A program made the translations under genes and the position numbers. Positions 5,876 to 41,283 of a DNA stretch of 41,283 bases are shown here, piece after piece (position 1 is the stretch's first letter; every line of letters starts with the position of its first letter). The stretch comes from Chromera velia (taxonomy: Eukaryota; Sar; Chromeraceae), in contig JAHBMJ010004831.1 of the NCBI GenBank assembly GCA_018398765.1, forward strand, positions 1-41,283, read 5' to 3'. The notes beneath the pieces are model-generated. The model saw only the letters and a list, made by a program, of their open reading frames with translations. It did not search any database and was not told where the DNA came from.

Positions 5876-5967
5876 CCTATTACTGCCAGTGAGTCCCTAG
5901 ACTCATGCATCATTAGCAGCAGTTTCTAACTTAAATTGAGCCCAAACCTACTATTATAATATAAAAC

Positions 5968-6239
5968 AGAATAATTAGTCATGTTCAGTGGTTACGTCTT
6001 GAAAAAGTCTGTTATTCCAGAGTCGCTATCTGGATAGAACAAAAAATAATCCACAAGATTCAGAAAGCAAATTGCATTCAACACGGAATTTAATCGACTC
6101 CATGAGGTGCGCACACAGTGCAACACATTGTCAATCGGTTTGACAAAATTCGAATTTCCGCGGTTCGCCTTGCGGCGGCGGTATACACGGCGACGGCTCA
6201 CGCGGCTCTTTCTGAATGATACACTGATACTTCTTAACT
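5968..6239 (-). repeat. 3' LTR of element 1
   Basis: 272 bp, matching 11870-12136 with about 19 substitutions and two indels (1 and 6 bp). In element orientation it begins AGTTAAGAAG and ends AATTATTCT, so it lacks the common TG...CA ends. A polypurine tract lies immediately before it. Confidence 0.93.
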
Positions 6240-6371
6240 CCCCCCCTCTGTTGACTCAATCGATTTATGGGGGAGTCGACAGACTATTAATCAATGGAAC
6301 TGCCCTTCAAGACCAAAATCTTTAGGCCATGTGATCTCGAGTTTCTTCCATTTTATAAGTCCATCAGCAAG

Positions 6372-8201
6372 CTACTCACGTTCACTAAAAACATGCTGAA
6401 GCTTCACATTCATTCCACCAAGTTCCTGTGCACACCACTTCAGAATTCCTGTCAATCCTTGTTCTTTCTTGCTGACACCTGACTCTGTCTGACCGAGGGA
6501 AGTCGCACTGTCCGTAAACATACGCACACTCAAAGAACGAAACAGAATTCGAAGAGAACGGACAAGAAGCGGTAGTCTTTTCAGACCAGCGTGGATAGCA
6601 AGCAGCTCTTCACCAGGTGTTGACAATACCAGTCGCTTCTCTCTATGTGTGGCCCAATCAAGAATGTTAAGCCAACAATGTAAATTTCAGGATCGATCAG
6701 CAAGTTGAATTATCAAAGCAGATCGAGCACTGTACGTCTTTCCTTTGAATCCACTAGCAACAAAGATTCGCAGTTCGGCATCAGAGACCGAAACAAAAAC
6801 AATCTCTTTCGGACGTGCTGCACGCATACGGATCAAAGTGATGATGACAGTAAGATGTTTCTCTGTAGGTGTCTTACTGAATGCCGCTAACTCACTTGCT
6901 GCAAATACCAAATCGAAACGAAGACGAGCGAGCCAGGCCAGACGACCAATCCATTTTAAGTAAGTCCCCTCCAAAGTCATGTCAATTTCCTCCGGTTCTG
7001 GAGGAGAGAAGTCGCTCTCAACGACCACTCCACTTGCCTTTCCTTTCGGAAGAGATGAGAGAAAAACATATTCGTTCATTCCCTGAAAGATGCGATCGTC
7101 CGATCTTCTCACATCGAAGCCGACTTGCTTCTGAGACAAGTCAGTCAGCAACTGAGGATCGTCTATCTCAATTAGTCCCTCGCGTGCAATCTTTCTGAGG
7201 GTAGCAAGAGGGTCGGCAGACGTGAGTACAACATCGTCAACATGCTTGGAGAGCAAACCATCAACCTTCATGTGCTTCACTTGTGTGATTGATGCGTCAT
7301 CTTGTGTCGGAAGAGGAGGAAGAGAAAGACTAGAACGAACCAAAACAAAAGTACTTTCCATCAATTCAGACCATCGAAGTCGAATCAACACACAAAAAAG
7401 AAAACGAGCAAAAATCAAAGGAGCATCTTTCAATCCATACGCAGCTGCCTTCAAGATGTAGACAGCTCCAGCCTTCAGATCAAGACGAAGAGCAGCAGGA
7501 GGGAGCCACGCAGGCATGCGCACACCAATGTTTCAAACCGATGACAGGAGAGGCGCTTGAAGAAACGCACAAGTAATATCAGCAAAAGCAATCTGCCAGC
7601 TCATCGACAAAGTAAAAACAAAGAGAATGCGAATCAAAAAGACGGCTGGCGTCCCTGCATAAGTCTTGACAGTCCGACGATTGAAAAACTTGTTGCCTGC
7701 CAAACATAGGTGCGCTTTCGCTTTTCTTGCTGCTCCTTTCATAAGTTTCTAAGTCAGAACCCAAATCAAAGAAATGATTGTTAAGAGGCTGTACGTCTCG
7801 CTTCCTACTTTCACCTCCTTTTCATATGTAGAGAAGCGCTCCCACTTCTCCATCTCTCTATCTCCCGCTCCGTCAAATTTCTCTTCCATCACCTCTCGCT
7901 TGTCTGCCTGCACGTGTATCTTGCCTATCTCGTCTGAACTATCCTTCTCAAGATAAAAAAGCTTCCTATCAGGTCTTGTCTTTGCTTTCGCTGCTGTCTG
8001 AACTAAGTGCCCATAACAAGGAAAAGAAAGAAGACAGGCAGTGCAGACACTCTCTTCATCACATGAAAAGAAGTCGCGGGGGCGTCTGCGATCATTATGA
8101 AAAGAAGAAGAGTCATAACTGGAATCGGAACTCTCTTCGTGAGACGCTGAAGGAGCCATCTTGGAGGAGTTAGGACCAAAAAAGTTCCTCAAAAAGAGCA
8201 A
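6372..8201 (-). pseudogene. Element 1 reverse transcriptase and RNase H region
   Basis: A single minus-strand frame covers a linker (8201-7749), the first reverse-transcriptase part (7742-7533; KAHLCLAG, TYAGTP, FADITCAFLQAPL), the palm (7523-6687; AAYGLKDAP, HVDDVVL as the YVDD box, YLKWIGRLAWLA) and RNase H (6626-6372; STPGEELLA, FTDSATSLG). These are the usual copia blocks in order. The frame is kept, but single in-frame stops lie at 7749 (TAG), 7533 (TGA) and 6687 (TGA); each can be explained by one transition. It would make cDNA from the element RNA if intact; here it is dead. Confidence 0.9.
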
Positions 8202-9770
8202 AAAGGTCGGATCCTTCTATATTCTTATCTGGCTGACCAGCAGGAGCATGCGCTGGAGGATCAATCACCTGAACGATCAACTGAGGAATTCTTTCTGTCT
8301 CTCCGTTCTTCTCCAAATTGAAAGGATGCATCAGACGGTCGGGTTGAACTTTCTGAGTGTTGTTTCTGTCTGGAAGCACAAGTTCGTACCCTGTCACTTC
8401 CCCCCCCGAGTTTTTGTGAATGAGCGAAACAGAAACGAGACCAGTGGGTGTCCGAGACATGCAACGAACAGGATGAAACACACCGTTCACAGAAACAAGA
8501 GCACAAGAAAGGGAAGAATCAGCAGAAAAATTAAAAGGATTCACCCCCCCCCCCCAATGCAGTCCCTCCGTTCAGTGGTGCTTGCGTTTCCTCATCAGAG
8601 GAGAACTCATAAATTAACGACTGTCTGAGAAGGACTTTGAATGGAGGGATGCACCGTACCGCACATTCGAGAGACGACAAAAGACCAGAGGCCCGACTGA
8701 GTGAAAACACCAGGAGTTGCATGCTTCACATCCTTTGTATTTGTCTTGACTGCGTGAAGCCAGCGAAAACAAACAGTGCACCACTCAAAAATAACACATT
8801 TAGCTCGGAAAATTCCAAAAGCAAACACTTCAAAACAACCATATAGAGGAATGGACTTGACACGCTTGGTGGGAGAAAAAACAACGGGATCACCAGGCAT
8901 GAAAATGATGTCAGGCACCCTTCCTGTCGCAAGGCGCAAGGGAGATGCTTTACGGTACATGGCAGTTCTGTTGTAAGACCATTCAATAAGAAGACAGAGA
9001 AGAGGAACAAAAGAAAGAGGAAAACCCTAAGTTGCAACCAAAGAAATCATTCCTGCCCGCAAAACGGTCCACCACTTCTCCATTGGCCCTCGAGAAGAGT
9101 TGGAAGCGAAAGGACGACAAACAGTCCCCGCTCGATTCAACACAGTCCGAACGTCCCCTTCCAGGATGCCTTTCTCATTGTCGGAACAAAGCAGCTTGAA
9201 GGCTCCATAGTTCAGATTCTATTCATTAAAGAATGGAAGGAGGTCTTTGCCTGCCCTGGAGGGTATCGATCTACACTGCACAAGGCCGGTGCGAAGGTCA
9301 GTGGTGGTAAGAAAAATCAAAGTGGAATAGGGAGTAGAACCGTAGACGGGATCAAGATCAGATAAAAACATCAAATCAGTCCAAGCCTCATCAAGAAAAG
9401 AAAGAGGAAAAGAAGAGTCAGGGTCGGAAGGATCTCTCGATTGAAACTTTCTGTTCATTGCATACACCCGAGGATAAGAGACACACCACGGGAGCGCAGC
9501 TTCAATCTTTTGTCTGGGGATGGAAAGGAAACAAGTGTTGTCTTATTCCTTCTAAGTGTCGATTAGTTAGGAAAGAGAAGGATGGATATGTCTGTAATGC
9601 TGCATGAGGATAGAGTTTCGAACAGATACAGGCACATGTGTCGTGTCAAGCACGAACGGACCAGAGGTCTCGCAATGACCCTTGCGATTTGGACCTTGTC
9701 GTATGGGGGCAGCAGCAACACGCTCTATGGAGGGAAAGACTTGTGAGAGAAAAGAAGAAATGAAATGCAA
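8170..9770 (-). pseudogene. Element 1 integrase region
   Basis: Minus-strand pieces in order: an HxRxxHPS motif near 9590 (pre-integrase zinc-binding region), the integrase core with WTDLMFL and LIFLTTTDLRTG (9467-9219), then after an in-frame TAG at 9219 an SDNE motif and GPMEKWW, which supply the second Asp and the Glu of the DDE triad. A C-terminal part (8960-8607) has ASPLRLATGRVPD. Downstream the frame shifts twice between about 8720 and 8170; a 13-14 base C-run at 8543-8556 sits at one of these shifts. The spacer 8544-8170 continues toward reverse transcriptase. The function would be insertion of cDNA into the genome. Confidence 0.8.
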
Positions 9771-10003
9771 ATAGAGAAGTTTAAAAGAAAAGAAACAAAG
9801 TGAATTCAGTTACAGTCTTTCTAGCTCGGGTCTTATCTCCTCATTTTTATCTCAGTCATTACACGTCTTTATCCCCCCACCCATCGATCTGTCAATGGCT
9901 CCTTTGTGAAAAGGATTTCTACGAATTGACTGCTTTGGATGTATATGGATCAACAGAAGTTACAGCCCTCTAAGTCCCCCTTAACAACAATATGAAAAGC
10001 TCT

Positions 10004-11617
10004 TTAGACCTTACTGACCCTTTGCGCAGTGACGATCGTCGTGAAAGGAAACTCTGCACTCGGAGACGCGCGTTGGAGCTTTGCCCACACAATCTCTCTC
10101 CCGGCGGAGACGAGGGCAGCCAGACCGGACAGGTGGCAGATCATCGGAGTGGTAAGCAGAACGTGCTTTGCTCCAGGGTGGTCGGTGAGATTTCCCTCGA
10201 GACGGACAACCGCCTCCTCTCCTGAGTAGAGAGGAACTCTCACCTCGATAAGAGCCCTCTCGTGACAGACCACACCCCCCCCCTCTCGCACTCCAAATGC
10301 TTCTGAGTATACTGACTTGTGCTGCCAGCGGTAGACAATGAATGGAGCAACAAGAAAAAGGGGAAAGAAAGAAAACGAACATTTGATGTCCATGTATATA
10401 CCGAAGCCGTTTTCCGTCAGCACTCTGCAGGACTCGGTGACCATATGCGCCATATGCAGTCGCTTGTAGGAGGTGTCAAACCCATCCTTGTTTCTCTCAC
10501 TCATCTTGATATAGTGAAAGAAACGAGCCATGAAGGCCTCTTTATCGAAGTTGGAACCCCCCATCTTACTGGAAGCGTCGCCCTCTGCCTCCTCGTCTTC
10601 ATCTTCATCATCTCCGTCTTCTGTACTGGCGTGTCTAATACGCTGCTGCTGCTGCTTCTTCTTCTTTGTTTGCCACTGGGCGCTGCCTTTGGTGCTACTG
10701 GGTTTCTCCTTCATCTTCATATAGGTCTCAGCCACAGCCTCCACAAAGCGGGCGGAGGAGAAGTTCTTTCCCTTCCCCCTCACCTGCATCTGACCACCAC
10801 TCCCAGAAGAAGAAGAGGAACTCGACTGCTTCTGTGAAGGGTGGTTATCCTGGCTAAACTTTCCTTTCCCCGCGCCCTTTCCCCTCCTCTGCCTCCAACC
10901 TCTATACTTCTGGGTGAAGTGTTCCAACTTGGCGACCATCTCTTTTTAGAGGTTGTGGAAGTCGGTACTCTCTGACAGCAAGCAAGCCGTCTCTGTAATA
11001 GCTGCTTCCAAACCTAGTTCCAAACCCTGGGGAAGGGAAGAAGGAATAGGAGAGGACGGGACGGTAAAAGTCTTCATAGCAGTCCCATTTAAGACTGAAA
11101 GAACACCAAACGAAACGGAAGGGATCCATGTGTTCCGATTGATCCTGTTAACTGAATCAAATCGGGAAAAGATCTCTCCAACGAATTGAATTTCGGTTTG
11201 GAACTTAAACGACGACTTCACCGGCACGGCCCCATTAGCTACTACGACTGTCTTCGTTCCCCAGGATGGAGCGAGCTTCTTGATATCCTTTGGAATGCAT
11301 TTGTAGAAACGAATGCCCAGAAGATGGTCTGAAAACTTCAATCCGACTTGGTCGGATGAAGCAACTTCATTCAGAGACGTGAAGGCATTGAGAGCCTCAC
11401 AAAGAGAAAGCCCGAACTTCGAAACGCAAAGGAAGAAGAACCAAATCGCATCGGCCAGGAGTTTGAACTCCCGGTCTTTGTCAATCTTCTTATCGACAGA
11501 CTCAATCGTCTCCACGAATGTGTCGAGGGCCCACTTGCTCAGGGCGGCCAAATGCACCGCATCGGTACTGGTTTTCTCGGGGGCTTTCTTGGAGACATCT
11601 GCCAAGATTTTCTCCAC
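10004..11617 (-). pseudogene. Element 1 gag and protease region
   Basis: Two open stretches (11617-10946 and 10939-10004) are in the same frame and separated by one TAA. The first is a mixed helical polypeptide typical of gag; the second starts basic (GWRQRRGKGAGKGK) and has Q/S-rich and acidic linkers. Its end carries KHVLLTTPMICHLSGLAAL, which matches the conserved copia segment after the protease (usually VLyvP..NLlS). No CCHC zinc knuckle is visible. A pyrimidine-rich minus-strand stretch ending TGGCAG (10322) interrupts the coding character, see findings. Gag would form the virus-like particle. Confidence 0.75.
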
Positions 11618-11869
11618 AGAGAACAGAGAAAAGGATCAACGTCTAAACAAAGAATGAAAAGAGAAGGACCGACATTGGTCAGGCCCGACATAGAGGCAAT
11701 GCTGTTTATCCATACCCTCAGAACCTTCGTATAAGACTGGACCTGTTTGTAGTCAGAGCGAGAGAGTGGGCGTTCGGTCGACCAGACGACCTTGCTTTCC
11801 TTCTATGTAAACATTGAAAGGAAGGCCTGGGAAGGAAAGGACAGAGAGGGTAGAGCACTGTTACACTGC

Positions 11870-12136
11870 AGAATAATTAGTCATGTTCAGTGGTTACGTC
11901 TTGAAGAAGTCTGTTAATCCAGAGTCGCTATCTGGATAGAATAAAAAGTAATCCACAAGATTTAGAAAAGCAAATTGCATTCAACATGGAATTTAATCGA
12001 CTCTATGAGGTGCGCACACAGTGCAACACAATTGGTTTGACAAAATTTGGATTTCCACGGTTCACCTTGTGGCGGTGGTGCACACAGCGGCGGCTCACGC
12101 GGCTCTTTCTGAATGATATACTGATACTTCTTAACT
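11870..12136 (-). repeat. 5' LTR of element 1
   Basis: 267 bp, paired with 5968-6239. Compared with that copy it has lost eight CpG sites to TpG or CpA, while no CpG was lost the other way. Confidence 0.93.
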
Positions 12137-15299: not shown

Positions 15300-17953
15300 A
15301 GCAGTATCTCTAGCCTCTCTGCCCCCCTTTCTAACTTATTACTGTATCTTATCTCTTTCTAACATATCTTTTTTCCTTCTATGCTATCTCATTATCCACA
15401 GTCGTTGATCGATCCGTTGGGAGTGTGACCTGTCTCCTTCCTATCTTCCCTCACCTTCTCACTCCAATATCCCTTATCCGAAGCGCTTCTACACTAAATT
15501 TCTCACTTGAACCTTACTGAGATATCCCAGGAGATATCTTTTATCCTTTTACACTATTATTCATTTCTGGCTGCTGCTTTCTATAGCTCCATTTACGTCA
15601 GCCTTCACTCTATCTTATTTTTCTATCACAAACTATTTGTGTGCTTCCTGAATTACACTATCTGATAACACCCCTCTCCAGACCCCTCTGCTCCCTTATC
15701 AATAGTCTACACTGCCGGTTTCTGCTTTCTCGGATTCAAACAGTACTTCATGTCCTCTGTTTGGCGAGTCAACCTGATCGACCAGTGAATGAACACTAGC
15801 AAAGAAGGAGGTCACGCTGGAGAACCCGCAATGGACGTACTCTACCACTGGTTACCCAGCAGTTTTCCAGCCCATTCTGGCAAACCAACAAAGCCGATGC
15901 AAAGAGCCATAAATCAGTGGCAGTAATGACAGGAACTCTTTGGACCTGGTCTTTTTTCAAAGCAATGATGAAACCGTTAGTTGTGTTGCAGCCGTGCACC
16001 CAAACAGGTTCCCACGTTATACGTGAGAGCTGACCTCTCAAGTTCATTGCCGGTTTGGTGCGCACGCTAAGTCTTTGCCTTGATAACCTCCTGGCCCTTT
16101 CTATCATGACCCTGTATAACAAGCATGAAAGACAGATTGACTATCCAACAATACAGCTGTGCGTGAAGTACCGGAGAATAATCGTGGCTTAAGTTGTCCT
16201 TGAGCCTTGAGGAAAAGACTTCTCAAAGCAGCAAGAAGATACGCCTGGAGGAAATCTTCCGGCCCACACCTATCTATCTAAACATGTGAGCGGAGACTCT
16301 GCGCTCCCTACATCAACATTCAATATGTTTTCCTCGATTTCTTAGTTAAAGGCTACATAGAGGAATGCGGGGGCCTAGAGAAAGGGTAGAGAAGGAGACA
16401 TACTCAGACTGTCAGACTGACAAACGTGAAGATCAAATTTGGTGAAGAGGGAAGAAGACATCTTCTGATGCTCCTCGAAGACACCCCAGCTTAGTCCAAT
16501 CCACTGTCAAGTCTGAAGTTAAGTACCAGGCCGTCTTGGTTCTTAAACAGGACGCGGTGGCGGGGAAAGTCAGATCGACAGAAAAGTGTACACAAAACCT
16601 CGGGGTACTTCGTTCCACAAGAACATTCAACAGCGTTCCAAGACGTATAAGAATCGTCAAATCATGCTCTTAAAAGCAGAGAGTCAATGCACTTACTTCA
16701 ATTTGCATTTCTCTGTCCTCCATAATACGTACGCTCCTTCGAGTTTGGCTTTGGTCATATGCAAACCTGGACAACGCCTCCCTCCTCAACAGTGTTCGCC
16801 TCCCTCCACAGAGTCTTACTTATCACTGATAACGAACGAGGATCAAAACACAGCTGAGAGATGACTCAAGTGAAAACTGTGTCCAACCTATTCCTGGATG
16901 GCAATGACTGCTGAGTCTGCCACAGATCAAGCACATTCGCGATTCAACAGATTGCAAGACACGGAACATCACACTAATCATCCATGCAACATCACAGAAC
17001 GTTCGCTAGCTAAACAATCTTAAATTGCTGCAATTTAAACTAAATCCCCTGAGCATTAATTTGTTTTACTTTTTAAAATCACTAGGTTTTTCTATATATT
17101 TGTTCTCTAATTAATGCCACTCACAACCCTGCATACATCTCTTGGTAGGGGCAGAGCGTGAGAAGAGACATGACGGTGGCGCAGCCGCCGTTTCCCTCCC
17201 TGCTCAGCAAAAAAGCGGCTTCTACACGAGGGGCGGCACCAAAAAAGTAGCTGTTTTAGCCTGAAAATATACGGAAACGACCGGACAAATAGTTAGGATC
17301 ACGAATCTGGTCTTATTTTTCATGAAGCTTACCTGCCTGACATCATGATCAAACAATCGAAAAGAGACAGATCTGTATTCACATGAGACTGTACAGAAGT
17401 TGCGTGACTGTGTGCATGCATGCGGTGCAATGCCGAGATGCATAAGGCTGGTACCCGTAGCCCCTGGCACCGAATGGCACCTGATCTGAAACTCAGGCTG
17501 AAAGACATGCCAAAGCCAAAAAAAAGTGGAACAAATTAAAGCTCAGGGGATCCGGTCCGATCGCGCGCATTTCGCGCGCGAAATCCCCCCTCGCGATCGA
17601 GTCTGAGGCGCGCAACGGTGGCCCGGCCACGTATACGCGCGCGCTTCTGAATGACTTCGATCGAACTCGATCAGTTCATCCTGAGTCGTGAAGCTGCGAT
17701 GTTGATCGAACATGATCGAATTAAACTCTGTCTGTGTGACTCAATGACAAGTGCATGATGTGCCAGAAGACAGAAAAGCATCTTTTTTGAGTCTTTATTT
17801 GTTTGTCCAAAGAGGAAGATTCGCAGGAAAGAACTCGAAAACGGGCGCAAACAACACACACGAAGACATACATACAAGGACCAACTTTGGTCGGTCCATC
17901 TGACAGCCGACATTTTCAATTAACAGAATCCTCTTCAATTCCGCAACTCAAGC
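15300..17953. other. No recognisable gene; CG-rich palindrome near 17569
   Basis: 15300-15780 is pyrimidine-rich on the plus strand. Two minus frames (16122-15796 and 16660-16433) have ordinary composition, but I can assign neither. 16980-17110 is AT-rich. A perfect 16-bp palindrome ATTTCGCGCGCGAAAT lies at 17569-17584 in a CpG-dense patch (17555-17645). The end must hold the promoter and leader of the AT-hook gene; I see no clear TATA element. Confidence 0.5.
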
Positions 17954-27392: not shown

Positions 27393-27861
27393 ACCGGCAT
27401 AGCTCAGTGGTAGAGCGCGTATTTTCTTTGACAACCTTGGAAATGATGATTGAGGTTTTTATTATGCATGCTGCGTCCCCGTGTATGAGGGGCGGATCTA
27501 GCCTAGTCTGTCAAAAGGTTCCGGTTCGTCCCGTCTGTTCTGAATCTAGGAATATCTAGGAACACTGCACATTGATCCCTTGGAAATTAAGGAAGATGTT
27601 TCGGTCTTGGTAGACTTTCGTCCACCACGGGGCTATGGCTATCCACTGGGATACACTCCTCCGGAGTCAGTCCCATACCCCATATGCATGTCTGCTCCCC
27701 CTTCCACTGGGGCAGTCTAGCAAAACTTCAGTTGTGCAGGATGTCAAATCTACTTCCCTGACTATACCTCTCCGTGGCCAGTTTACCTCTTCGAACCCTC
27801 AATCATCATCTTCGAAGAGAGTCAACCTACAAGGTCCCGGGTTCGAATCCTGGTGCCGGCA
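27393..27861 (+). tRNA. Interrupted tRNA-like gene (two halves about 400 bp apart)
   Basis: The 5' half (27393 on) reads ACCGGCA TA GCTC AGTGGTA GAGC G: acceptor strand, D-stem and a good A box. The 3' half has the T-arm CCGGG TTCGAAT CCTGG (27837-27853, a good B box) and acceptor strand TGCCGGC (27854-27860), then discriminator A at 27861. Six of seven acceptor pairs form; position 1-72 is an A-C mismatch. The anticodon arm cannot be folded across the gap, so amino acid identity is unknown. The gap is far longer than usual tRNA introns. It may be a tRNA gene split by an insertion, a tRNA with an extraordinary intron, or a tRNA-derived SINE. Confidence 0.55.
27441..27500 (+). repeat. Dispersed repeat, copy A (inside the split tRNA)
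   Basis: This segment, from AAATGATGAT through GAGGGGCGGATCTA, recurs on the opposite strand at 33623-33677 with small gaps. It lies between the tRNA halves, so the interruption contains mobile or repetitive DNA. Confidence 0.8.
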
Positions 27862-27862
27862 C

Positions 27863-27867
27863 TTTTT
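27863..27867 (+). terminator. RNA polymerase III T-run terminator
   Basis: TTTTT begins two bases after the discriminator of the tRNA-like gene, where a pol III terminator would be expected. Confidence 0.6.
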
Positions 27868-28374
27868 CAACACATTCGGTACTTTTTGGGCTGCCATGCA
27901 TGCAATGGCATCGCGAGCGCAAGGGGCCCGGTTTGACCTTCGCAAGCGTTTACTAATATGCGCGTTTGACCTTCCTTGCAGTTCCTCAGACTTCCTCTGC
28001 CTTCCAACATCTTCCAATGATCGTCGGATCAAAGTGTAATTGAGTGTCCACCAGATAGATCTAGAAAAAGTCCTGAGTGCCTCCTTGAAGAATCATTTCG
28101 AATCACAAGAATCAGACAGACGGTCTGAGATTCAGACTGAGAATTGAACACCGAGACAGCGGGCAGGTCGATCGCAAAGTGGTTTGGCCATACGTCTATA
28201 TATCGACACTTCCTGCGACAGTGCATGATTCCTCGAGCTTTGAGATCGAGTAACTAGAAGAGAGCCAGATATCCTGACAGTTTTTGGCGTCGATCCATCT
28301 GCTTGTCCTCCCTCCAACAGTCGCTGATCGTGCCGTTGCCTTCCTTCAAGTTGAAGGTCATCGAGGCACCTGTG

Positions 28375-28490
28375 GTAAGTCTGTTCTCTCCTGCTCTCTT
28401 CTTTGGCGTCAACTTCATAATTTGCTTCTTTACAACTGATTTGATTGCATAACAGTAGTCTAAAGCTTGTGAGTTTGCGAATCTGTGCAG
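28375..28490 (+). other. Likely intron in the leader of the CBM20 gene
   Basis: A strong donor GTAAGT (28375-28380), a pyrimidine-rich interior and the acceptor CTGTGCAG (ending 28490) define a 116-bp intron upstream of the ATG at 28584. Joined flanks give a frame that stops before 28584, so it is probably a 5' UTR intron or the end of a small upstream ORF. Confidence 0.6.
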
Positions 28491-28583
28491 GTGACCGCCA
28501 AATCAAACGAGGCCGCAGGAAGCCTTGTTCCTTCTTGACACTCACCTCCTGATCAAAACCGTCTACCTGTCTGCATTGGCACG

Positions 28584-29620
28584 ATGAAGGGGTTCATCGC
28601 CTTCATTGCACATTGCCCGGAGTTGCGAGAGAATCAACGCGTTGTGGTTATGGGAGAGTGCCCTGAGCTGGGTGGGTGGGAGTTGGGTGGTGCGTTGTCT
28701 CTGAGTCCTGCACCGTGCGGGCGTCCGTGGTGGGCGTCAGGTGAGGTGAAGATAAATCTCCCAGAATCCACGATGGGTGTCGCTGGAGATTCGTGAATGG
28801 CGTGGAGACGGGGGAAGAGGGTGGGGGCGTGGGGGTGTCAGAATTGAAGTTTCGACTGCTTGCGATTCCGAACGATTGGCAATGCACAGAGTTGGAGGTT
28901 CCACATCCTTGCGACCTCGTGTCTCTTGAGCCGTTGATGGAGGGAGACTTTCGTATCGTGCGTCTCGTTGGTGCGCCTCCTCTTTCTGACCGTTCTTCGG
29001 TCGGAGCAAGAGGAGTCAACACAATCCATGTCTGTGCAGAGGGAGGAGAGGGACAGGAGAGGGAGGTGGTTGGGATTTCGGTCGAATGGGGGGTCCCTGA
29101 GAGCGTGCAGCTCGCTCTTCTCCCTCTGCCCACGAACAGACAGATGGAAAACCTGCACAGAGAATATCAGCATAATGGTCTGTCTGAGAGCCAGCCAGAG
29201 ATTGCGTGTCCGCCTTTCTCAGAGGGAAGAACCGAAAAGACGTCCAGAATTGAGAAAGGAAACGGTGGTTCAGAGGGCGTCCCCATTTGCCGCCCCCAGT
29301 CGGCTGTCAAATCCTAAAGGTCTGATCATGACAGGGGAAGCGATGAGGGTAACCACCCCGCTGACTTCGAGTTTGACCACCCTCCAACCCAAAGGACTGT
29401 GGGGGGAAGAGCATCTGTGAGCGTGGCCGACAGCGCTATCAGTGCAAGGACTGTGGAGGAAAGGGCATCTGTGAGCACGGTCGTATTCGCTCTCAGTGCA
29501 AGGATTGTGCAGCGAAAATGTTTTGCGAGCACGGTCGGCGGCGCGATCGATGCACAGATTGCGGAGGGGCGCATCTGTGTTCACTCAAAGGACCGCCGAT
29601 ACTGCCGGGAGTGCCTCAAG
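28584..29620 (+). pseudogene. CBM20 starch-binding protein with C-x-H-G-R repeats, frame broken
   Basis: From the ATG at 28584 comes a CBM20 domain: FIAHCPELRENQRVVVMGE, PELGGWE and a PWWASGEVKINLP strand match the family pattern (G..v.l.Gs.peLG.W...W...v.lP). CBM20 binds starch or glycogen, or related glucans in signalling phosphatases. The frame then shifts near 28780 and continues (WRFVNGVE, ELKFRLLAIPNDW) to a TAA at 29315. Beyond lie four Cys/His repeats of the form (I/F)C-E-H-G-R-x-R-x2-C-x2-C (29392-29620), probably zinc-binding; the first three are one frame off and the fourth returns to the frame of the middle part. A donor GTGGCC follows at 29621. Either the gene is dead or the sequence carries indel errors; the domain calls hold in both cases. 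Confidence 0.7.
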
Positions 29621-29649
29621 GTGGCCTCTTCTCTCCCTCATTGATCCCT

Positions 29650-31146
29650 CCACTTTGATGTTCTGTGCCCTTCGTCCCCTTCTTTGTCTCTTCCTACACG
29701 TATGCAAGATGAATGGATGGGGGCAGCAAGGGGTCCTTCTCGATTTGTCCTAGAGGGAAAGGGGGATGAGGCGGTGAGTGCTGACAGTCTTCTCAGTGGT
29801 GCTTGCCGTCGTTGTGCTCGTACGTGCATTGTGCACAGACTTTCGGAGTACGTGTGTTTGTATCCGTCTGTTCTGTCTGCCCCCTTTCCTTGCTTGGCTC
29901 GACTTTTGTTTCTCTACCCTAAGATACTTCGACCCTCGATCTGTCTCTCTCTTGAGCTACTTGCTTTGTGTTGTGCTCTCTTGGTTTCTGTCTCTGTTTT
30001 TTTCGTCGGAGACTGTAGGGGGACAGAGTCAGAAGAGCCACAGAGACGGGAAGGGGGGAGAGGCATGACTGTGAGGAGAGAGAAAAAGAAGCGGAACACT
30101 TGCAAAAGAGGAGAATTCTTGGCGTCAGTGAGCCGTATGATTACAGATTGTTTTGATCTTTGTTCTAAAGATCTTTTCTCTTCCTTTGCCCCCAACACTG
30201 GCTGGCGGTTTGAATGTCCTTTGATTTCCTCTTTTCGTCTGACCGGCCATATGTTTGTTTTTTCCTCTTTCTTCCTTCCTTCTGTCCGTCGTTCTTCCTT
30301 CCTTCCTTCCTTCCTTCCTTCCTTCGTTCCTTCCTTCCTTCCTTCCTTTCTTCCGCCTTTCTTTCGTTCCCTTTCTTTCGGTCTTCCTTCCTCCCTTCCT
30401 TCCTTCCTTCCTTCCTTTCTTCCGCCTTTCTTTCGTTCCCTTTCTTTCGGTCTTTCTTTTGTCCCCTCCTTCCTTCCTTCCTTCCTTCCTCAAGAGTTTC
30501 TTCAGGCATTATGACACGGCGGAATCGCTCCTCTCTTGGGCCGGACTGTATGTGTATTTGGCGTAGCGACAATTTCTGGTTATTTTTGTTGGCAGCTCGC
30601 CACTACTCGCTGTCGTCGTCTTCCCCCTTTCTCTATTTTTTCCCCCGACACATACACCCCTCTGTGGACATGTCTTATCAATACACCTTTTTATCTACAC
30701 ACTTCAGACACTACCCCAAATTTTGCTTCTTGGCATACTAGGTTATGATTCAAAAGGAATCTAACTAGGTGCTCCTGCTTTCTCTTGAGATAGCTTCATA
30801 AAGAGGGAAGGGTGCATCATGTATCTGCTTTTAATATACAGACAGCTGGACAGACAGTTTTTTAAAACTTGTTTTTTGTTCAAAATTTTTATATGACTAG
30901 TTATGTGAGTTTAAAAGAACATCAACATGATTAATCACTAACAATCGTGAAATCAATCATTTTTATTATGGCCATGTACACATCGGCACATTAATATTGC
31001 TGGCAGCATATTGCTAGTTAGAGTTTTAGGCTAGCTGATAAAATTAAATTCATACAATATTCTGGAGTGAGTGGATGTAGATCTACTTTATGCACAAAAC
31101 TAATTAAATACGAACAGTCACTTCCAGTACTAGTTCCAATAGCTCT
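29650..31146. other. No recognised gene; pyrimidine repeats then AT-rich sequence
   Basis: Downstream of the CBM20 gene the sequence is pyrimidine-rich to about 30660. Frames here are repeat translations. 30750-31146 is AT-rich and holds the 3' flank of the minus-strand helicase gene. Confidence 0.6.
30291..30490. repeat. (CTTC)n tract with a 69-bp higher-order repeat
   Basis: CTTC/TTCC repeats dominate. The block starting TTCCGCCTTTCTTTCGTTCC occurs at 30351 and again at 30420, a 69-bp period. Confidence 0.92.
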
Positions 31147-33739: not shown

Positions 33740-34022
33740 TTTTTTTGTTAGATCAGGTGACAAAAAAATAACTCATTGAAACTCATTGCTAGCTCTTGAA
33801 CAGTCTTTATCTATGTACTGACAAGATTCCATATTATTCTAGGTCCGATTTCTGAGAGGCTAAACACGATATCGATAGGCTACCATAGGCTACGATATAC
33901 AAGATAATATACAATATATACCAGTCTATTGCTAAAACTTTAAAGCGGTGTAAAAAAGCCTTAACATTTTTAATTGAATCTAACTTAAAACTAATTAAAA
34001 CGTTTTAACAGTTTAAAATTAA
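33740..34022. other. AT-rich island left of element 2
   Basis: Strongly AT-rich, no gene. Together with 40302-40700 it forms the island that element 2 split. Confidence 0.7.
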
Positions 34023-34330
34023 GTAGAACGTGCAAGCGGGCCGGCACCGGCCAACCAGTCCCGCCGCACAGCGCGCCTCCAGAGAGCCATGACCGAGCAC
34101 GTACGCATCTTGCAGATCAATGCATGCAGAATTAATTGCATGTACGTAAATGCATGTAAACAGTAATTCGACAATACAGAATGATGGAGTCAGATAAGTC
34201 AGAGACTTGATTGATGGTTAGAAGTGAAGTAGCCTTGCTTCAGACACCTTTTGACAACGAATACATAAAAGTGCTGTGTACGCTCGGAGGGCAAAGACGC
34301 CCCTAGACAAGCAGTGTCTAGCTCTTTCTA
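34023..34330 (+). repeat. 5' LTR of element 2
   Basis: 308 bp, from GTAGAACG to CTCTTTCTA. It contains repeated TGCATG motifs (about 34120-34155) and probably the element promoter. Noncanonical ends. Confidence 0.95.
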
Positions 34331-34359
34331 GTAACAACCCAGCGAGAGAATAAGTGAGT

Positions 34360-35358
34360 CGGGATCGTCGTTTCCGGTTCTACAGAATGACCAGGTCTTC
34401 AAGCCCTGGTGGGATCAGTGCGTATCGAAAACAGAAGGGGCAGAAAAGCTCTTCGGTGCCTCTGATGAGAATATTGCATAATGGCAGGCAAGCAAAATTT
34501 ACTCGGCAACTCATAAGCATCCAATTGTTGGAAAGTCCATCCAACATCTTTTCGATCAAAAGAATGACTCCCATGATACGATGTTCCACAATGCTGGCAC
34601 CCTTAAGATAGATTGGGTCAAGTACAGGGACGCCCTTTTAGACAAAATCAAACAGCTCCTTGAAGAAACTGCGAAGGCCAAATCTAAAAAGAATGCGCGT
34701 GAATGGCGCATGCTTGCGGATAACGGCCGAGATTTTGCATCGTTTCAACTTCTTGTCGACTTCTTTGAGGTACTGGAGAAGGAGATGAAGGACTCAAAGG
34801 GAGAGAAGGACGTGCCTGATTCTCCGAGAGGGGAAGCTGTGTTGCTTGCTTCCCCGCCTACAACCAGAGGATGTTGGGGACAGATTGGGATGAAGACAAT
34901 CTGTCTGACTACGGAAAATTGATTGCGGAGGCAAAGAAGCTCGCATGCAAGACCTAAACCAACATCATCACGGAACTAGCAGGAAGTCCGCCTGCCTGGC
35001 AGACCACCACCACCAACAACATCACTCAGATGAAGAAAGCCACAGTTGACGACTCGTCAAGCAGGAGGCTGCCTTTGTCGGTGGCGCTGGTTTTCCTCCG
35101 AGGGGGAGGAATAGAGGCAGAGGGCGGGGAAGAGGCAGTTCAAGGGTAAGTCGAGGAGGAGGTCATGGGAGGCAAGAGAGACGCCAAGAAATGAACCCAA
35201 ACGATTGCCCAAAGTGTGGCAGGGCAGGGGGGCATGACCCAAAATGGCTTGAAAAGAATGATTGTCCAGAGAAGACACACACGTGCGAGATCTGTGGGAA
35301 ATATGGACACAGGCCACGCGTGTGCAGGAAGAAGAGGGACACTGCAAACACCCCCTAA
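34360..35358 (+). pseudogene. Element 2 gag with CCHC zinc knuckle
   Basis: A gag-like frame runs from about 34360 to 34922 (FKPWWDQC, WVKYRDALLDKIKQLLEE, helical and charged) with one TAA at 34479. No ATG lies at its start; an ATA at a plausible place could be a mutated ATG. Near 34860 the coding character moves to another frame (TDWDEDNLSDYGKLIAEAKK), which has a TAA at 34955, then to a third frame with CPKCGRAGGHD and a classical CCHC knuckle CEICGKYGHRPRVC, ending at TAA 35356. CCHC knuckles bind the element RNA during packaging. The frame changes mean at least two indels or unrecognised splicing. Confidence 0.8.
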
Positions 35359-35568
35359 GCATCCACATCCAAGTCCAGAGGCAGACTGAGGAGGCCCCCA
35401 TTCACAGAGGGGACGTGGAGGGATGCAAGCTGCTTGAGGTGGTGGCCCCGGACGATTCGATGGCAAGGCAGCCTACTACGCTCAACATGAGAAGAATGGT
35501 CAAGGGTGCACACCTGATTAATATGAGGTCAGCAGACTTGCGGGACATCATTCCCAGTCTGGAAAAGG

Positions 35569-35671
35569 TTCTCAGAAGGCAGGCCACCTTCTTAAGTGTT
35601 TTCGAAATAATATGTGCATGTCTGTGCTTCCTCATTCATCTCCCTTCTTTCTGTCTCTCTGATATTGGCAG
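35569..35671 (+). other. Intron-like segment between gag and pol of element 2
   Basis: GT at 35569, then a strongly pyrimidine-rich stretch and the acceptor GATATTGGCAG ending at 35671. The surrounding element is purine-rich, so the stretch stands out. The pol frame is open directly after it. Confidence 0.4.
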
Positions 35672-38600
35672 GGTGCGGAGGGAGGAATTCGACAGACATT
35701 ACACACGACATTCCAGATGAGGGATGGTGCGCCCCAACCATTCTTTATCGACGTGAAGGAGCACCACGCCTACATGGTGGACTCTACTGGAGATGACGCG
35801 AGACCCCCAGATAAGTCAGTATCGGTCAGTCAACACAGACCTGCTGCATGCCGTCGGATGCACATCGACTCATGCACCACGGCACCCATAGGATGGGAGA
35901 GAGAGCTGGGAGGAATGGTTGTCTGGAGTAGGCCATCTGACATGTCTTTTGGGCTTATGCAGAAGGAGACAGAAAAGAAGATCTAAATCTCCCGTCTCGT
36001 ATGCATTGCACAGAAATGCAAAGTCAGAGGGGTAGGCTGGAAAGTCCTTTTTGTCATGGTCTATCTGACGCACGACCCAGTGCCATATCTGATGAGACAG
36101 GATGATGCTGAGGGGGAGACGATTTTACGAAAAGAGGGGAAGGAATCATATGTGGTCGTGAGGGATGCCAGGGGGTTCTTAGCGGAGATCCTTGTTGACA
36201 ATCCAAGGGGAGACGGCCGCACAACAAACCTTCCGTTCACAGACGTCATTGTTCCCCGTACTAACGAAGTAGCAGCAGCAATGAGAGACGAGGGGAGCGT
36301 GTGGGCTGTGGGGTTGTGCACCATTGGGTTTGAGGAACTGAGGGCAGAACACAGGAGATTCGGGCACGTAGGCAGAGATAAGCTAGAGCCCACACTGGCC
36401 TGCAGAGGGATGCAGGCAAGAAGTGAAGACTGGAAGAGGCTTGAGACAGAGTGCCGACTGAGTCCCCTCAAAAACGTAACCATCCCCACTCTAGCTCCAG
36501 TACCCACCCGACATAAGGATGCGGGTGGGCTTTTCGACATCATACAGATTGATCACTGGTTTCCCAATGATGATGAGATGGCAGGGCCTCACAAATGCTG
36601 CATGTGGGTGATTGATCAGTGGGGGGGACTTGACCTTGACTACCCCCTCAGGTTATAAAACTAGTCCGTCGAGGGGTTCAAAGAGCATATCGACTTTGTT
36701 GAGTCGTTTGGGGGAGTACAATTCCAAAAGGAAGGGCTGAAGGCAGTAGTAGCACGCATCTGGTGCGACGAATCGGATGCACCTGAATTCCGAGGGGGGG
36801 AGTTTGGAGCGTTTGCAGAGCGAAGGGGAATAAGATTTTTGGACCATCCGTCCAGAATCAAAGGAGCTCTGGGTTTTATGAAGGGGAAAAACAGGCATGC
36901 AAGAGCAGAGCTTAGTGCCTTCCGGGCTGAATGGAAGCGCTAGTTTAGTTCATGCCCCAAATCCCTCTGGGGTCATATGGCCAGAGGGATCAGCATCACC
37001 AGAGCTAAGACATACAGCAAGGTGCTTCGCACCTCCCAATGGAAGAAAACCTTCGGCTCTGACCCTCCCTACCATTTTTTTTGCGGAGATGTGGGTGTGT
37101 TGCGAACTGCAGAGAGTGGAATCGAACTTCCAGGCAGCGAGGTTGTGTGGCTCTATGAGAGGAACAAAAACCTTGCTGTCGTGACTCGAAAGCAACCGAA
37201 CCGTGACGTGTAGGACATCATTCACACGTATCCTCACTACATCAAACCAGTGAAGAGGGGTATTGTAGCATGTTGGGGGGGGCCTGAATGGGTCCCCGAG
37301 AGCAACGAATCGCAACAGCAGCAGCCCTACGCCATTCCTCCTTTTTCTGAAGAGTCCTCCCAGAATGATTTCCTTCCCGCCCCCCCTGTCCAAGGAAATG
37401 CATCCAATGAGGGGGTGCATGGTCACGCCTCTGGTGGGGGGGTGCAGCAAGCCCTAGAGCAAGCCGATGGACAGGCAGCAGTCCCAGAGCAGCATGGGGC
37501 TGATGTGCCACCAGCTTCACAGGAACACTACACAGGCATCCTTGTGCAGGGAAGGAATAACCAGCTGGTCCCCATGGCCATGACTGGAAAGGCATTCAAA
37601 CGGACCGTCCCCGTCTTCTCACTCTCAAAGCAGCCAGATGGTACCTAAAATTTTTCTGGCATCTCCTCGAATGTGCGCAAAGCAGATATGCTGCATTATT
37701 TCGAGATTGTAGGGGGTCGTATTCCATCTGCAATCGAAACACAGATTTCACCCCCTCTTCCATTGCAGGCGGAGGGGTGTATGAATAATCAAGCACCTGC
37801 TCAGGGAGAGGGAGATGGAGACAGAAAGGGAAGGGACGACTCACCTAATGGGAGAGACCATAAACTGAAACACAGTGATGATGAGGATTCTCTCTTCGGA
37901 GAGAACTTCCTCGCATCCGATGCCCTGACAGGAGGGCAGTTAGATAGAAACAACAAACAGGAACAGGATGGGGGGCCTCCAGGGGCAGACTTTGGAGATG
38001 AGCCTCCTGCAGACAACGTCTTCTTTCTTACTCTTCCCCACGACTGCTTCTACCTAAGACCAGACCCCGAGCATCCTATCATAGTCCCTGACGACTTCAA
38101 GCAGGGATCCACGCAAACCCCTGCGCTTCCGGAAGAGGTCGAGAGGGGAGACTTCGATGAGGCATGCAGAGACGAGTGGCTAAAAAACATTATAGGTAAG
38201 GGAGTACTGGGTAGGGTGGTCGACAGAAAGGAAGTGGACTCTGTCATGCGCATGGGTTGGAGACTCACTTAGAAAGAGAAAGAAACCAAGCAGGCAGAGA
38301 AAGAAAAGGAAGAGAACAGGCAGAAGCAAGAGAAAGCAAGAATTGATCGGCAGTCAGGACGACAGGCAGACGGTTCTCAGGGAGACAGAGAGGTACAACA
38401 GCCTTGCAAGTACAAGGGCAGGAAAGGAAGGATGAAAGAGAACGAACCGAGACAGGCAAGGCCAGAGAACAGAAAGCCAAAAGCAAGATGCTTCGGAAAG
38501 GGTTTCACAGACAAAAGAGCGGTTGACACTTATGTCGGCACACCTTCCGTCTGGGCAATTCTTATATTCTGCATTTTTTCATTAACTTTCTGTCTCTCTC

Positions 38601-39922
38601 GTTTTGTGGGGGACATCTCTGGAGCATTCCTCACTGCCCCTGATAAGAATAAGAAGAGAGCCGCAGTCATCATTCCCGATTGGCTGCCGCACATTCCAGC
38701 TAAGAACTCATATGAAGACATGAACGACAGGGACTACGAGACCCTCAGAAAAGCAGCCCTCGAAATCAAGCCGGGGGAGCTTCGATTAGTGGAAAAGGGA
38801 CTCTACGGGATGCCCTGCTCAGGTAACATCTTTGACAAAAGCCTTGCAGGAGTCCAAGGTGAGGCAGGATATGAACGACTAGAGACAGGGGTGGCAGTCA
38901 AAAGAAGTGAGGCAGGTGAGCCCACTGTGGGTGTCCAAATCAATTGTATTGATGATGTATTCGGGGCAAGGAGGGGTAGGAAAGAGACCACAGACGAAAT
39001 TGTATTCCTCAGAAGCAGGTTTGAATGGGGACACCTCTCCAAACTTCTCTCTGATGCCAGTATCAAGTATACCGGCATGGACTTCTCTTTCTTCAATGAG
39101 ACAGTGGAGGTATCTCAGAACTCATACAGCAGGGGGGTCAACACAGATGCCCTTTGGAGAACGATTGGAGAAAAGAAAAAGAAGGGGGAAGTGAAAGCCA
39201 CAGAACTTGAACCCGCAATCGAAATGGAGAAAGAGGGGGGATTGGAGCCGCTCATACGGAGTATCAATGGTGTGTTGCATTGGATGGTGTGCACACGACT
39301 CTCTAGACGTGTCTGGGCAGATGAGCTCAGTTACCACTCCACCCAACCATGCAGGAGAGTTGTTAGAGCAGCAGTCAGGGTCTTAGAAATGGTAAAGGAG
39401 AAGAAAGAGCCGATCCGTCTGTGGGCACTGAAACGATTTAAGAGAGTTATGCTAGCTGTGCTAGGTGACAGCTCCTACTCCCAAACCACCTACAGTAGAA
39501 GGTTGGGTTAGCTGATATTCTTGGTTGAAGAAGGATAGACTCCAGAGACAGCAATACAGGAAGCCAACCCATGGCAGAACATAATAGCATGGCATACTGA
39601 ACGCCACAACCACAAACATAGGAGTAACACAGCAGCAGAAGCAACTAGCTTCAAAAACATCATCAAGCATCTTCCCCGTTTAAAGACACTCGCAACCCAC
39701 CTGTAGGGTTAGGAACCGAAAGTACAATTCTTTACTGATTGCAACCCGTTCTTTGAACAGTTGAGGACGGGCATAGCAGCAGATGGTACCTCACAGGGGA
39801 TGCTTGATTTCATCATACAGGAACTCGGACAGACCAGAGGGTCAGTGACTTGGTGCAGGAGAGAGGTCCAGATGGCCAACGGGCTGACTAAGCCGTGTTG
39901 GCCTGGGAAGGAATTTTCATGA
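35672..39922 (+). pseudogene. Element 2 pol polyprotein, one frame with 11 TAA/TAG codons
   Basis: One frame of 1417 codons covers a protease-like region (FFIDVKEHH), a pre-integrase HRRFGH motif (about 36355), integrase (IQIDHWFPN, RGGEF; the Glu of the DDE triad appears replaced in GFMKGKNRHA), a spacer, reverse transcriptase (DISGAFLTAPD, KGLYGMPCSG, CIDDVFGA as the YVDD box, MVCTRLSRRVWADEL) and RNase H (FFTDCNPFF, VQMANGLTKP as the terminal ADxLTKP). Internal stops are TAA at 35984, 36656 and 37646, and TAG at 36662, 36941, 37211, 38270, 39509, 39536, 39704 and 39710; the end is TGA 39920-39922. There is no TGA inside and no frameshift. Confidence 0.92.
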
Positions 39923-39993
39923 ACAGAGAAGAACAAATGACAGAACAAGGATGACAGAAGAAAGACATAGATCTTTGTAAGATAGGGGGATGA

Positions 39994-40301
39994 GCAGAAC
40001 GTGCAAGCGGGCAAGCACTGGCCAACCGGTCCCGCCATACAACGCGCCTCCAGAGAGCCATGACCGAGCACGTACGCATCTTGCAGATCAATGCATGCAG
40101 AATTAATTGCATGTACGTAAATGTATATAAACAGTAATTCGATAATACAGAATGATAGAGTCAGATAAGTCAGAGACTTGATTGATGGTTGGAAGTGAAG
40201 TAGCCTTGCTTCAGACACCTTCTGATAACGAACACATAAAAGTGCTGTGTGCGCTCGGAGGGCAAAGGCGCCCCTAGACAAGCAGTGTCTAGCTCTTTCT
40301 A
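39994..40301 (+). repeat. 3' LTR of element 2
   Basis: 308 bp, paired with 34023-34330; 17 of the 18 differences are transitions. A G-rich polypurine tract lies just upstream. Confidence 0.95.
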
Positions 40302-41283
40302 ATTAAAATAAGAGATCGACATAACTACCACCTCCATCTCACCTATAATTGAAAAGCTATCTTGCAACATGAGGCTCTACTAATAATTGAGAACGCTTGT
40401 ATCACATAGTATGGTTAAGTATAGGACTAGGTATAAGAGTTTTATCTTTAGAAATCTTTATTCGATTTCGGGCCAAATTTCAGGCCTACTCAGCCCTAAC
40501 GATAGCAAGATATATATACCAAGTTTAACTGAGACATTAGCAAAATTAATCTTTATGGCTCACTTAGCCTAATGACTTAGGCTTAATCTTGCCTTAGATT
40601 CCTTAGAAATCAAAATTATTTTGAAGACGTTAATCTAGACTTTAATGAGCTTTCAGATATTTAAGTTAAACATACACTAAAACATGCATTAACAACAAAC
40701 CTACTAGTAAAACGAATGTAGTCTATAGAACGTACTAGTACACGTACGCACTGTACTACGCACGCAAGGTAAACATGAATCGATGGTGACAAACGAGCCT
40801 CTTAGTCAGTCCAGCGAATCTGTGTGTCATCCTTTTTCACGTTCCTTCAAATAAAGTCTTTCTCTAGTTCTTTCTCTGCTGTCCAACGTGGTGGCGGTCT
40901 CGGAGTGGAACTCATTCGCGAAGACGATTGATGGGTGGGTGCAATACATTGAATGTCCCAGACGAGGCATGCACAGAACAGGTGGGAAAAGTGAGAAGCA
41001 ACTTGCAGAGAGATTGTACTAAGCTAGGTCAAATTCCTCACGACAGGTCGACTTATCATCGACATAAACAGCCACCAACTGCTCCAGCTTCTCCTGGGTC
41101 GTTTCGTCTGTGCGTCTACTCATAAATCGGTCCATCCTATCCACTCATTCATTCATCAATTCGTTCACGCATGCCAAGCATACAGTCACTCACGCACGCA
41201 CTCACTCACTCACTCACTCACTCCCAGCCGTGTAAAACCGACAATCGTTGCTCTGCGCCTCTCTCTTTCTCTCCCCCCCCCCC
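40302..41283. other. AT-rich island and repeat-rich window end
   Basis: 40302-40700 is AT-rich and is the right half of the island split by element 2. 40800-41180 has a mixed composition; the 65-codon plus frame at 40928-41125 is not recognised. (CACT)n occupies about 41191-41222, and the window ends in a C-run. Confidence 0.6.

Follow-up and report, generated by a model that had tools for sequence, protein, structure and literature searches.

Transitions between the two LTRs of element 2

What process lets the two long terminal repeats (LTRs) of one element diverge almost only by transitions? The question is raised by an LTR element of Chromera velia, here element 2, in contig JAHBMJ010004831.1 (assembly GCA_018398765.1), which was analysed over a stretch of 41,283 nucleotides (the window). 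The element lies between target-site duplications ATTAA at 34018-34022 and, matching them, at 40302-40306, and consists of a 5' LTR (34023-34330), an internal part (34331-39993) and a 3' LTR (39994-40301), all on the forward strand. The longest listed open frame of the internal part has 359 aa. A Pfam search with four open pieces of this part gave no match at E 0.01, and two of the pieces had no match even at E 10.

An ungapped recount of 34023-34330 against 39994-40301 gave 18 differences in 308 positions, namely 17 transitions (Ti), one transversion (Tv) and no indel, exactly the counts of the original prediction. Its ten sites with TpA in one LTR against CpA or TpG in the other and its three CpG losses were recovered as well, and the remaining transitions fall at CpT (two), at CpC (one) and in a changed context (one). 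Relative to the partner LTR, the derived C-to-T state is found at 7 sites of the 5' LTR and at 9 sites of the 3' LTR. CpA accounts for 10 of the 16 transitions with readable context, compared with 34% CpA among the cytosines of 30 paired LTRs (P = 0.02). Taken by itself, the pair in the window is modest evidence.

C-to-T substitutions across the LTR family

We searched the window's own assembly (177.8 Mb, 4040 contigs) with the 5' LTR of element 2, and 40 scored matches of 72 candidates yielded 15 LTR pairs and 10 single LTRs. Over 4614 aligned positions the members of the 15 pairs differ by 185 transitions and 27 transversions, with a single gap. When the direction of change was set by the state of the other LTRs, it turned out that 178 transitions are C-to-T and only 6 T-to-C, with one undecided, and the C-to-T changes are shared almost equally by the two strands (86 on the plus and 92 on the minus strand). 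The rates depend on the next base: 5.9% at CpA (90 of 1528) and 5.8% at CpG (56 of 964), against 1.8% at CpT (22 of 1212) and 1.3% at CpC (10 of 779), and the odds ratio of CpA against CpT and CpC together is 3.8 over the 15 pairs (P = 6e-12). The target duplications of the other pairs fit better with an LTR edge one base upstream; with this edge the 5-bp duplications are identical in 12 of the 15 pairs, while C2364 agrees at 4, C296 at 3 and C3862 at 2 of the five bases. The pair on C3862 (assembly handle G000, positions 120971 and 126788) differs by only 2 transitions and 1 transversion in spite of these poorly matching target duplications, a combination that points to an exchange or an assembly join.

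The number of C-to-T changes per LTR is near-Poisson (mean 5.93, variance 7.93), the mixture of strands within a copy is as chance predicts (P = 0.61 over the 29 LTRs that were hit), and neighbouring changes lie on the same strand in 72 of 149 cases. Only 22 of the 178 derived states are private to one LTR. The shared states are unlinked among copies: in the 20 LTRs that carry five or more hits the maximum overlap is 2.55 where chance predicts 2.48 (P = 0.02 in one LTR). This rejects exchange between copies as their source and indicates that recurrent hits at the same CpR sites explain the sharing. Steady deamination at marked sites would be expected to leave such a pattern.

Internal pieces and a second element family

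Element 1 (5967-12136), with terminal repeats at about 5967-6239 and 11869-12136, represents a second family of LTR elements and has a weak match to RVT_2 (E 0.03). Both ends of the internal part of element 2 were used for the comparison of copies, and singletons were counted in these end pieces (12 and 12 copies) and in those of element 1 (4 and 4 copies, so that the direction of change in the latter is read from four copies). The spectrum of element 1 resembles that of element 2, and the two families together have 698 C-to-T, 64 T-to-C and 104 transversion singletons, the C-to-T changes being divided 362:336 between the strands. CpG is changed most often (5.2%; 179 of 3422), followed by CpA (4.0%; 268 of 6759), CpT (2.1%; 146 of 6985) and CpC (1.7%; 105 of 6085). 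The rate at CpG exceeds that at CpA (P = 0.004), and the preference for CpA and CpG is weaker here than in the LTRs. The enrichment at CpA/TpG, on whose presence in further copies the original prediction depended, is therefore found in the 15 LTR pairs as well as in the internal pieces. Among 25 copies of the element 1 LTRs the bias is not seen, with 26 C-to-T, 22 T-to-C and 17 transversion singletons.

The base before CA shows no preference in the internal pieces (TCA 69 of 1724, ACA 71 of 1531, CCA 64 of 1622, GCA 64 of 1881), and an apparent avoidance of TCA in the LTRs (3 of 334) was dropped because it is absent here. CAG (83 of 2023) behaves like the other CA sites (185 of 4736; P = 0.73) and lies above CTG (38 of 2052), with CCG at 9 of 847, which means that the next base alone counts and that the plant-type rule of CHG above CHH is rejected. 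A rule based on the palindrome CATG was also dropped (CATG 11 of 415, CATH 53 of 1236). In the whole genome, 99 of 150 scored RVT_2 matches (514 candidates) contain stop codons (115 TAG, 40 TAA, 32 TGA), which is suggestive and confounded by codon use.

Spectrum of comparison DNA

The spectrum control is based mainly on one duplication in the window, a region of about 2.7 kb with a paralogue on C3426. The region 27809-30811 encodes a CBM20 starch-binding domain, for which reason we judged it to belong to a host gene, and its exon limits were read by eye. The gene with its flanks occupies 27809-30250 on the forward strand and encodes the CBM20 domain and C-x2-C repeats; the distal 3' stretch of the duplication lies at 30467-30811 (345 bp). 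The segment 28539-29655 belongs to a large gene family with many paralogues, in which the CBM20 domain is followed by 54-bp C-x2-C repeats.

Compared with the paralogue, the duplication has 140 transitions, 66 transversions and 20 indels in 2740 positions, a count that omits a short CCTT-rich stretch (47 positions with 4 transitions, 4 transversions and 2 indels). Its Ti:Tv of 140:66 differs clearly from the 185:27 of the LTR pairs (P = 2e-6). The proximal 2400 positions have an ordinary spectrum of 103 transitions and 59 transversions without CpA excess, since CpA stands to CpT and CpC as 16:49 compared with 88:30 in the LTR pairs (odds ratio 9, P = 6e-11). Nor was a CpA excess found in the 1.6-kb stretch of the duplicated gene with 90% identity, or in the flanks judged non-coding (27809-28570, 24 Ti : 19 Tv; 29661-30250, 31 Ti : 23 Tv). 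A third paralogue polarises the central part of the duplication only, in which 26 changes are C-to-T, 10 T-to-C, 11 transversions and 9 undecided. The outcome that would speak against an element-specific bias, the same Ti/Tv and context elsewhere, is thus mostly not what we observed, the gene duplication being largely free of it.

The distal stretch is element-like, with 37 transitions and 7 transversions in 340 positions, 10 of 40 CpA and 9 of 22 CpG changed (CpA against CpY, P = 0.04), and it is low-copy, with three genomic matches when the stretch itself is counted. The sparing of the proximal part beside an affected distal part means that the process respects some boundary and is not strictly confined to known elements.

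Eleven tandem arrays gave 81 Ti : 34 Tv (CpA 16, CpG 15, CpT 12, CpC 11, changed context 27) and are mixed as a control; three of them outside both elements are rich in transitions (20:2 in one, 15:0 and 13:1 in two arrays that are related). Two LHC paralogues, from three fetched of 58 matches, differ in the coding frame by 14 Ti : 6 Tv (CpA 2, CpG 4, CpC 8). The genome encodes light-harvesting proteins of the FCP type, which, like the 48% GC of the window, suit C. velia. Two further repeats of the window are a tandem array at 12-252 (73-bp unit, 3.3 copies) and a dispersed repeat of about 510 bp at 17044-17558, which has at least 13 other matches above 400 bp with 84-93% identity (39 of 2750 candidates scored).

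Explanations of the substitution bias

The counts support a C-to-T process beyond the control background which acts on LTR elements. CpG and CpA are hit about 2 to 4 times more often than CpT and CpC, on both strands and gradually; the C-to-T direction, the context, the strand symmetry, the recurrence in two element families and the sparing of most of one gene duplication are all established directly by these comparisons. The best explanation is that cytosines of the elements are probably methylated at CG and CA, without a CHG rule, and then deaminated, so that of the two options in the original prediction it is the second, non-CG methylation followed by deamination, that fits best. Element DNA would be recognised as transposon (or silent) chromatin and methylated by a putative enzyme that prefers CpG and then CpA, and deamination of 5-methylcytosine would then produce T, a base that escapes uracil repair, with slow inactivation of the elements as the likely outcome. 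Since an excess of transitions is also seen in the distal 345 bp of the duplication and in three tandem arrays, the process may be directed at non-genic DNA as a whole rather than at elements alone.

The first option had been repeat-induced point mutation (RIP), an active mutator that recognises duplicated DNA by homology and converts its cytosines in bursts, as in ascomycete fungi. The RIP indices suggested there as a check are 0.66 (TpA/ApT) and 1.28 ((CpA+TpG)/(ApC+GpT)) over the whole window, which by the usual thresholds are not RIP-like, and for young copies such composition indices are uninformative. The changes themselves share with fungal RIP the conversion of C:G to T:A on both strands of repeated elements (178 C-to-T against 6 T-to-C, 86:92) and the place of CpA, well above CpT and CpC, among the preferred sites; PMC4352252 describes CpA as preferred in most species and RID as required, with some fungi also showing CpG. 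CpA is however not predominant in C. velia, where CpG equals it in the LTRs (5.8% and 5.9%) and exceeds it in the internal pieces (5.2% and 4.0%). The duplicated gene, with its 90%-identical stretch, is largely spared although the distal 345 bp of the duplication are hit, the near-Poisson hits lack strand clustering, only about 6% of CpA sites are changed per LTR, and a RID/Masc1-type gene was not recognised by the exon-by-exon profile search of the genome. RIP proper is therefore unlikely here. An algal RIP would not be absurd, as a relationship between RID/DMTA and diatom DNMT4 has been described (PMC9998398), but our data do not call for it.

A spontaneous genome-wide spectrum rich in C-to-T at CpR in unconstrained DNA, masked in the control by selection and gene proximity, would account for the transition-rich arrays and for the distal stretch, low-copy as it is. 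We regard it as possible though doubtful, since the flanks judged non-coding show neither the transition bias nor the CpA excess, and the transition rates of the elements would take DNA to about 9% GC, yet the window has 48%. The dominance of C-to-T is also what a cytidine deaminase of the AID/APOBEC kind would produce on single strands or on the cDNA of elements; it is very improbable in view of the equal strands (86:92 and 362:336), of the preceding base being without effect at CA in the internal pieces, and of the reasoning that editing of cDNA would mostly predate the formation of two identical LTRs. Even less credible is an artefact of sequencing, assembly or recombination in which LTRs of different copies were joined. 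The incomplete target duplications of C3862 and C296 would suit it, but thirteen of the 15 pairs agree at five bases (12 pairs) or four (one pair), mixing of copies cannot produce the C-to-T direction, the shared states are unlinked, and most of the control, taken from the same assembly, lacks the bias.

Comparison with known systems

Methylation followed by deamination, the explanation we prefer, has parallels in several lineages. In wheat, Ti/Tv is 2.8 in elements and 1.9 in introns and UTRs while transversions are unchanged (PMC2996936), and in C. velia Ti/Tv is likewise higher in elements than in other DNA (185:27 against 140:66). Plants differ in that CG and CHG stand above CHH, whereas in C. 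velia the rate depends on the following base alone (G and A above T and C) and a CHG effect is absent. The order of CpG first and CpA second is also reported for C-to-T changes in elements of Tuber melanosporum (PMC4352252, Table 2), a fungus which, unlike C. velia as far as the profile search recognises, has a RID-like and a Dim2-like gene. Symbiodinium is an alga too, in which transposable elements are enriched in CH methylation and CHG does not differ from CHH (PMC5890265). Its CH methylation, however, was determined by direct measurement and reaches about 1%, and the sections of PMC5890265 considered here describe no CpA mutational trace. For DNMT3A/B, only CpG is a better site than CpA (PMC7335073). 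A comparable C-to-T signature in a chromerid or another alga was not found among the titles and abstract openings of the literature searched.

The analysis provides evidence at the level of sequence that an algal lineage marks cytosines selectively in its elements, in the uncommon combination of CG and CA, and the genes described below are candidates for tests. Besides, at the Ti/Tv of the control the 27 transversions would go with about 47 to 57 transitions and not 185, so that LTR ages are inflated, the transition clock being about 3 to 4 times too fast.

Candidate methylation genes

Profile searches read the genome exon by exon, and genes split by introns can escape them. Within this scope the PF00145 search recognised no DNMT1, DNMT3 or DNMT5, nor the RID/Masc1 type mentioned above, and a Tet/JBP search gave nothing at E 0.1. 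C2797 encodes an SRA domain related to UHRF1, which speaks for the methylation reading in that it would supply a reader, while the only candidate for a methylase other than the DNMT2 type and the weak match on C1422 is a fragment (C788, below). A search for MBD produced a match at E 0.035 and another at E 0.06, one of them just over the curated cut-off.

PF00145 detected loci on C3982, C1092 and C675. A weak match is found on C1422 (E 0.72), and the locus on C788 shows motif I only (PF00145, E 0.006; methylase 3g7u, E 0.009), the rest being not readable. It is conceivable, albeit rather improbable, that this red-lineage alga, in which DNMT1, DNMT3 and DNMT5 were not recognised, has a transposon-directed mutator of CpG and CpA cytosines that is a counterpart of RIP outside fungi and has sharp limits, one of them near 30.4 kb in the window. 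It might be run by an unrecognised methylase, for instance from the partly read C788 locus, or by several DNMT2-like genes.

The loci on C3982 and C1092 have DNMT2 as their best match among solved structures, while that on C675 was judged DNMT2-like when its open frames were inspected by eye and otherwise matches only PF00145. One genome thus holds three DNMT2-like or DNMT2-consistent loci (L039, L040 and L041), more than the single DNMT2-type gene that is usual.
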